Shown here piece by piece: positions 11,241-11,404 of a stretch of 13,651 bases of DNA. Source of the stretch: Acidimicrobiia bacterium. GTDB taxonomy: Bacteria > Actinomycetota > Acidimicrobiia > Spongiisociales > JAENVV01. How positions within the stretch are numbered: the stretch's first letter is position 1; each line of letters opens with the position of its first letter. The stretch covers positions 1,188,483 to 1,202,133 of the forward strand of contig CP070681.1 of NCBI GenBank assembly GCA_020352575.1. Reading direction: 5' to 3'. The position numbers and the translations under genes were made by a program. The notes beneath the pieces are model-generated. The model saw only the letters and a list, made by a program, of their open reading frames with translations. It did not search any database and was not told where the DNA came from.

Positions 11241-11268
11241 TTGACGGCCATGGGTGCAGGGCTATGGT
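11241..11268 (+). promoter_or_regulatory. leuA leader promoter (TTGACG-16-TATGGT)
   Basis: TTGACG at 11241-11246 matches the -35 consensus at five of six positions. TATGGT at 11263-11268 is a good -10, and the spacer is 16 bp. This is the best-formed promoter in the window. The predicted start at about 11275-11277 falls at or just before the leader-peptide ATG at 11277, so the leader peptide mRNA is itself almost leaderless. Confidence 0.8.
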
Positions 11269-11276
11269 TCCGACCG

Positions 11277-11309
11277 ATGCTGCAGTCCATGGAGCTTCTT
11301 CTTATGTAA
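11277..11309 (+). CDS. leuL: leuA leader peptide ([10 protein letters not shown])
   Basis: A 10-codon reading frame, [14 protein letters not shown], begins right after the predicted transcription start. Four of its ten residues are leucine. Codons 7-9 are three consecutive CTT, whereas I find no CTT among the 40 leucine codons of the leuA gene downstream. A slow ribosome at these rare codons would report low charged tRNA-Leu. A hairpin starts one nt after the stop codon and a terminator follows, the normal layout of amino-acid attenuators. Translation could also start at the internal ATG at 11289, which keeps all three CTT codons. The peptide has no function of its own. Confidence 0.85.
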
Positions 11310-11310
11310 A

Positions 11311-11338
11311 CGGCGAGTGCCACAACCGGCCCTCGTCG
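11311..11338 (+). promoter_or_regulatory. First attenuator hairpin (1:2) after the leader peptide
   Basis: Positions 11311-11317 pair with 11332-11338 (7 bp including one G-U), and after a T/C mismatch 11319-11321 pair with 11328-11330, leaving a 6-nt loop. It starts just after the leader stop. A ribosome held on the last leader codons would cover its 5' arm. Its 3' half (11328-11338) can instead pair with 11352-11363, forming a candidate antiterminator that competes with the terminator. Confidence 0.65.
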
Positions 11339-11373
11339 AACCTCCCGTGCCCGACCGGCCAGGGAGGTTTTTT
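11339..11373 (+). terminator. Intrinsic attenuator terminator upstream of leuA
   Basis: AACCTCCC (11339-11346) and GGGAGGTT (11362-11369) form a perfect 8-bp stem around a 15-nt loop. A run of six T (11368-11373) follows. It lies 31 nt before the leuA start codon and after a promoter and leader peptide, so it acts as a conditional terminator for leuA and not as the end of an upstream gene. Confidence 0.88.
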
Positions 11374-11404
11374 CGTTCCGGAGCCAACCCAGAGGAACCA
11401 CGTC

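Follow-up and report, generated by a model that had tools for sequence, protein, structure and literature searches.

How the leuA gene at this locus might be matched to the supply of leucine is a question raised by the short region in front of it. The window, a stretch of 13,651 nucleotides from an Acidimicrobiia bacterium whose 1.7 Mb genome (G000) is 69% complete, carries on its forward strand a gene at 11405-13108 that matches two profiles for type 2 2-isopropylmalate synthase (LeuA; TIGR00970, 786.5 bits against a cut-off of 697.4; NF002991, 860.8 against 455). By direct reading, a putative -35-like box, TTGACG (11241-11246), is separated by 16 nt from a putative -10-like box, TATGGT (11263-11268), which ends 8 nt 5' of the ATG at 11277 that opens a leader peptide of ten residues (11277-11309). 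This peptide, probably translated from a leaderless mRNA, contains three consecutive CTT codons (11295-11303) one codon 5' of its stop. Adjoining the stop codon and beginning one nucleotide past it is a hairpin (hairpin 1, 11311-11338; computed energy -15.5 kcal/mol), which is delineated by folding, conservation and covariation and which we propose as the antiterminator. It is followed with no linker by an intrinsic terminator (11339-11373), recognized from sequence and folding, with an 8-bp stem (11339-11346 with 11362-11369), a run of six T (11368-11373) and a folding energy of -18.3 kcal/mol for 11339-11370. AGAGGA at 11391-11396 is a possible Shine-Dalgarno sequence of leuA. The promoter-like pair, the hairpin and the terminator had all been pointed out in a sequence-only reading of this DNA, and all are present; the fold of 11277-11400, which that reading had proposed as a check, has an energy of -46.9 kcal/mol (z = -2.88), and none of 200 shuffled sequences was as stable.

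These parts include what defines a ribosome-mediated attenuator in the broad sense, namely a short reading frame with codons of the regulated amino acid, an intrinsic terminator that, by sequence and folding, lies between this frame and the structural gene, and an RNA element, hairpin 1, whose computed folding depends on ribosome position. The sequences support the view that leuA is preceded by a leucine-codon transcription attenuator that is conserved across the class and probably leaderless. As to how it would work, our main reading, which we hold at a probability of about one half, is a leaderless, ribosome-sensed leucine attenuator in which hairpin 1 is the antiterminator and melts when the ribosome reaches the stop codon. 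A literature search, with most subscription journals outside its coverage, returned no description of such a leucine attenuator for this class and no paper joining 'Acidimicrobiia' with 'leader peptide'.

A close type 2 leuA was found in 137 of 395 genomes of the class, which together with a second copy in one genome (G378) gave 138 copies; a second gene fragment in G079 was left out. For each copy, 500 bases of upstream sequence were sampled where the contig allowed, and for L136-L235 the gene end scored higher in the chosen orientation in all 100 cases. A run of at least three leucine codons ending zero to two codons 5' of a stop precedes 121 of the 138 copies, bearing out the expectation that relatives would conserve these codons, and 119 of the 121 leaders also have a hairpin at the stop with an adjacent terminator, recognized as another hairpin followed by a T tail. 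Of 1200 positions chosen at random in these upstream regions, 108 satisfied this hairpin-plus-terminator rule; the leader layout before type 2 leuA is not a product of chance. In 93 of the 119 leaders the first base of hairpin 1 is the last nucleotide of the stop codon, and the linker between hairpin 1 and the terminator measures 4 nt or less in 111 and zero in 55. All parts seen in the window are present in the closest relative found (L002, LeuA 77% identical), which has a TACGGT box, the leader MQHALELLLT* with the run CTC CTT CTT, a hairpin 1 that has diverged yet is still paired, and a terminator similar to that of the window. The layout also occurs in an Acidimicrobiaceae MAG (L032) and an Ilumatobacter MAG (L037).

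The copies outside this set of 119 fall into several kinds. For two (L012, L172) the sequence stops at a contig end; four (L143, L146, L178, L206) show, by eye, the hairpin and the terminator with fewer than three consecutive leucine codons; two (L116, L191) pass the leucine rule and fail the hairpin rule; and in eleven (L005, L009, L011, L115, L117, L135, L177, L197, L231, L233, L235) the layout is absent. Another short leader, with an RL(L/M/I)xPA-like end before its stop (for example ...RLLGPAA*), is found at L009, L011, L115, L117, L135 and L197, and it resembles leaders in L031 and L039.

Both helices show signs of having been maintained as pairs. When 13 leaders are aligned with MAFFT, the two helices have 93.5% of their cells paired, compared with 38-53% when the partners are slid by one to three columns, with the caveat that the tested structure was drawn from the same 13 sequences. 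Compensatory changes, expected for relatives, are borne out for both helices by pairs changed on both sides (7 versus 3.4 in shuffles) but not by further pair types, which are at chance (15 versus 14.4 in shuffles). A swap test, in which partners are exchanged between species and kinship is ignored, indicates that hairpin 1 (-19.3 own versus -14.0 swapped) and the terminator (-20.2 versus -14.7) are each co-adapted.

The strongest evidence that the leader codons are sensors is that they change with the gene downstream. We scanned loci of the class for a hairpin abutting a stop codon and followed by a terminator, ignoring leucine codons altogether. This codon-blind scan matched 104 of 136 leuA loci, where the last seven codons of the leaders are 54% leucine, and 22 of 30 ilvB loci (the best 30 of 53), where they are 32% valine, 27% leucine and 8% isoleucine; matches were found at one of 30 trpE loci (the best 30 of 48) and at one of 29 leuS loci (from the best 30 of 55), this last without leucine codons. 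Such dependence on the downstream gene argues against a constitutive partial terminator accompanied by a fortuitous leader and giving no leucine response, an explanation that we regard as highly improbable. In the genome of the window, the ilvB leader (L345) is masked by a stretch of N with a T run at its end.

A covariance model built from 13 leaders, including that of the window, finds one strong site in the window genome, the leuA leader, with the next site at E 0.03. Across the phylum, 40 of 396 genomes contain a match to it; 27 belong to the class of the window (its own genome included) and 13 to other classes. With 12 phylum matches left out as lacking a locus or being second copies, thirteen matches from outside the type 2 set of the class were examined, and profiles identified the gene downstream of ten: type 1 leuA in five (L288, L291, L299, L310, L311), type 2 leuA in L308, ilvB in L309, and leuS in L296, L300 and L305, where a two-hairpin leucine leader precedes leuS in genomes of other classes of the phylum. 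The leuS genes of L296 and L300 are cut by the end of the locus, and their scores lie just below the curated cut-off. At L295 and L298 the downstream gene looks by eye like type 1 leuA, and L312 is too short to tell. Separately, 11 of 17 type 1 leuA loci (L016, L017, L019, L020, L021, L023, L024, L025, L026, L029, L030) have upstream, by eye, a GGCCGGGC...GRCCCGGCC-like element with no terminator seen, which looks like the published LEU element.

The choice of CTT in the window had suggested a leader tuned to one scarce tRNA-Leu. Within the run at 11295-11303 leucine is indeed read by CTT only, although this does not hold for the whole peptide, in which the leucine at codon 2 is CTG, and the 40 leucine codons of the window's leuA include no CTT, as had been noted (24 CTC, 12 CTG, 4 TTG). 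Among the 119 leaders, all-CTT runs are found in only three, those of the window, L154 and L175. The 430 codons of the leucine runs are a mixture of CTT (151), CTC (150), CTG (95), CTA (18) and TTG (16), in which CTT is enriched, at 35% compared with 8% (97 of 1224) in leuA of 30 loci. By established decoding rules, a tRNA-Leu(GAG) or a tRNA-Leu(AAG) would read CTC as well as CTT; in the window's leuA, CTC is the most frequent leucine codon. With mixed runs and such decoding, the proposal of a single scarce tRNA is unsupported; slow wobble reading of CTT is possible. In the window genome the tRNA-Leu genes detected have anticodons TAG, CAA and TAA, a set that is incomplete. Anticodons GAG (one gene), CAG and TAA were found in G099, among 8 long tRNA genes fetched, and TAA, CAA, CAG, TAG and AAG (one gene) in G022, among 10. 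The AAG gene of G022 (L280, G022:C1:96157-96343) carries an anticodon that is uncommon in bacteria, and none of the 10 long tRNA genes retrieved for G022 has GAG.

The suggestion that the leader peptide is translated from a leaderless mRNA is probably right. In 80 of the 119 leuA leaders, an in-frame start codon follows the end of a TANNNT box at a distance of 5-9 nt, most commonly 7 nt, whereas the same count at 33 shifted control positions has a mean of 2.7 and a maximum of 7. Among the ilvB leaders, drawn from the best 30 of 53 loci, only 6 of 22 have this spacing, which counts against the leaderless reading. Leaderless leader peptides are described for Streptomyces lividans leuL1, before leuA, and leuL2, before leuS (PMC8079986), which share with the present leaders their leucine runs and, in leuL2, a hairpin with a U stretch; they differ in that leuL1 has no typical terminator and in that both have at least four codons between the leucine run and the stop. 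For Corynebacterium glutamicum ilvBNC, the transcript reportedly starts one nucleotide from the leader start codon (PMC11857589).

The dependence of each structure on the ribosome was computed by folding the RNAs as they would stand before synthesis of the terminator 3' arm, with the ribosome represented as a mask of 12 nt counted from the first base of the A-site codon. Hairpin 1 forms in 116 of 119 leaders with the ribosome at the first leucine codon, in 87 at the last leucine codon and in none at the stop; in the 22 ilvB leaders (among the best 30 of 53 loci) it forms in every one when the ribosome is on the first sensor codon and in none when it is at the stop. With masks of 8, 10, 12 and 14 nt, the counts were 117, 117, 116 and 116 of 119 at the first leucine codon and 14, 1, 0 and 0 at the stop, while those at the last leucine codon depend on the mask (115, 107, 83 and 15). 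The computed probability of the terminator is constant over ribosome states, with a median of 0.91 in each. Computation thus picks out hairpin 1 as the element that responds most to where the ribosome stands. Because its 5' end lies at the stop codon, it would be left free by a ribosome stalled on the leucine codons and melted by one at the stop.

This outcome bears directly on the textbook alternative, a classical E. coli-type attenuator in which a ribosome on the leucine codons masks region 1 and 11328-11338 pairs with 11352-11363 as the antiterminator. The sequence of the window does allow the pairing that had been proposed for this role (11326-11338 with 11352-11363; -11.3 kcal/mol), although it takes two bases of the terminator 3' arm. 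A weak helix of this kind is also present in the computed folds of the window, but in the state where the ribosome has reached the stop. More generally, structures competing with the terminator 5' arm, by pairing with it or bridging it, appear in 66 of the 119 leaders (that of the window among them) when the ribosome occupies the stop, and in 35 when it occupies the last leucine codon. In these folds, a ribosome stalled at the first leucine codon does not mask region 1, hairpin 1 being kept. There the terminator 5' arm is pre-empted (probability above 0.5) in 0 of 119 leaders, compared with 4 at the last leucine codon and 10 at the stop (window, 0.01 at the first codon); a longer definition of the arm gives 1 of 119 at the first codon, and helices bridging over the arm number 1, 31 and 57 at the three positions. 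In the E. coli controls, by contrast, the arm is pre-empted at the first sensor codon with values of 1.00 (thr), 0.67 (leu) and 0.71 (trp), falling to 0.00-0.01 with the ribosome at the stop. Regions 2 and 3 are also without co-adaptation in the swap test (own -5.37, swapped -5.63 kcal/mol, sd 0.16), in clear contrast to the two hairpins themselves. Judged by these tests, the attenuator would be a variant that lacks a classical antiterminator, and we consider the classical mechanism unlikely. Among L031-L110, where 77 loci have enough upstream sequence, three leuA leaders were usable, one (L037) of the type found in the window and two, proteobacterial, with the classical pattern.

Several other pairings and devices were weighed. 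The leucine run pairs slightly better with the terminator 3' arm within species (-8.77 versus -8.28, sd 0.11), as does region 1 with region 3 (-8.19 versus -7.90, sd 0.12); both gains were set aside because relatedness alone can produce such differences, and for the first the sign would also be wrong. Pairing of the hairpin 1 loop with the terminator or the ribosome binding site was rejected, the own combinations being weaker than the swapped ones, and so was base sharing at the boundary of the two hairpins, where an extended terminator takes in the final base of hairpin 1 (P > 0.5) in only 12 of 119 leaders. Starvation-induced frameshifting past the terminator was rejected for want of a preferred direction among the open frames: the in-frame, +1 and -1 frames are open through the terminator in 107, 106 and 101 of 119 leaders, against about 82 in shuffled sequences.

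Translational control of the kind proposed for leuA of other Actinobacteria as the LEU element (PMC1262725) was considered as well. Leucine codons would then pair with the Shine-Dalgarno region of leuA, and the terminator would be incidental. The published element resembles the present leader in having a leucine-run leader peptide before leuA with a conserved structure adjoining it, and it differs in its pseudoknot, in its pairing of leucine codons with the Shine-Dalgarno sequence and in that its description, in the accessible part of that source, mentions no intrinsic terminator. The fold of the window does pair UUCUUCU of the leucine run with AGAGGAA before leuA. Across species, however, the leucine run pairs less well with its own ribosome binding site than with swapped ones (-7.07 versus -7.80), a strong conserved terminator intervenes between the leucine codons and this site, and no Rfam model (4227 searched) matches the window at its gathering score, nor 11200-11450 even at E 10. 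We take this explanation to be very unlikely.

In our main reading, hairpin 1 as antiterminator, transcription would start at or beside the leader start codon. With Leu-tRNA in short supply, the ribosome would wait on the leucine run, hairpin 1 would stay folded and RNA polymerase would read into leuA; with Leu-tRNA plentiful, a ribosome at the stop would cover the 5' arm of hairpin 1, which would melt, so that the terminator would work and transcription would end near 11373. The attenuators of E. coli leuL, trpL and thrL share the sensor codons and the intrinsic terminator, but in them a stalled ribosome leads to an antiterminator on the terminator 5' arm, whereas here it is the hairpin after the sensor codons that is free when the ribosome stalls. 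The wiring would be the reverse of that of E. coli trp, in that a stop-bound ribosome would melt hairpin 1. Because hairpin 1 is present in the starved state and leucine shortage should raise leuA, it would have to antagonize the terminator.

How it might do so is suggested by the way the two hairpins meet. Because they share almost no bases, abutment is a candidate: when only 0-4 nt separate the helices, hairpin 1 in its folded form may block full closure of the terminator stem inside the exit channel of the polymerase. That much is guesswork. The short linkers of the leuA leaders count in its favor. Against it stand the ilvB linkers, which span 0-7 nt in the 22 leaders found among the best 30 of 53 loci, and a genomic study in which a contiguous cluster of hairpins is reported to terminate as effectively as a single strong one (PMC8355165). 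The antiterminator model as a whole is weakened by the count of only 15 of 119 leaders with hairpin 1 at the last leucine codon under the 14-nt mask, by the scant competition for bases between hairpin 1 and a terminator whose computed probability is the same in all ribosome states, and also by the bridging helices found in 57 leaders with the ribosome at the stop, since these would hinder termination when leucine is plentiful.

Attenuators commonly contain a pause hairpin, and hairpin 1 could be one that lets the ribosome catch up with the polymerase, the cause of readthrough then being kinetic or a protein factor, invisible in secondary structure. A YG step lies 9, 10 and 11 nt after hairpin 1 in 53, 33 and 41 of the 119 leaders, as such a role would favor, but no spacing dominates and the step also occurs within the terminator sequence. 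Part of the leaders carry a conserved motif, CATA, in hairpin 1 (41 of 119, against 2.4 expected from shuffles; for example in the loops of L131, L145 and L186), which is possibly a protein or tertiary contact; this too fits a pause hairpin, although the motif is missing from most leaders. We judge this alternative rather unlikely.

Two characterized attenuators can be taken as precedents for the wiring of hairpin 1. In M. tuberculosis ilvB1NC (PMC13236596), as here, a uORF with sensor codons for branched-chain amino acids precedes an intrinsic terminator. In the published model the antiterminator is masked once a ribosome sits at the stop, and changes to the sensor codons abolish induction; there, however, antiterminator and terminator are described as mutually exclusive, whereas here they lie side by side with almost no shared bases. 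In C. glutamicum ilvBNC, which belongs with the ilvB-II motif (PMC11857589, PMC10272879), antiterminator and terminator hairpins are likewise neighbors, overlapping by three bases (PMC11857589), and the transcript is said to start near the leader start codon, but that leader is described with three hairpins and a shared GCC, while the present leaders have no third hairpin and mostly no sharing.

Textbook attenuation relies on two RNA structures that cannot coexist, and here, as computed, two hairpins fold side by side. We tentatively suggest that these leaders represent a two-hairpin attenuator without exclusive pairing, in which hairpin 1 would abut the terminator, a ribosome at the stop would act as an anti-antiterminator and the sensor codons would be exchangeable, serving leuA and ilvB across the class and, in other parts of the phylum, leuA and leuS. 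If the leader regulates as expected, either abutment of hairpin on hairpin or polymerase kinetics must be at work, and two structures would suffice where there are usually three. The proposed antiterminator role of hairpin 1 also carries a directly testable prediction of sign: in the absence of leader translation, leuA would be on rather than off.
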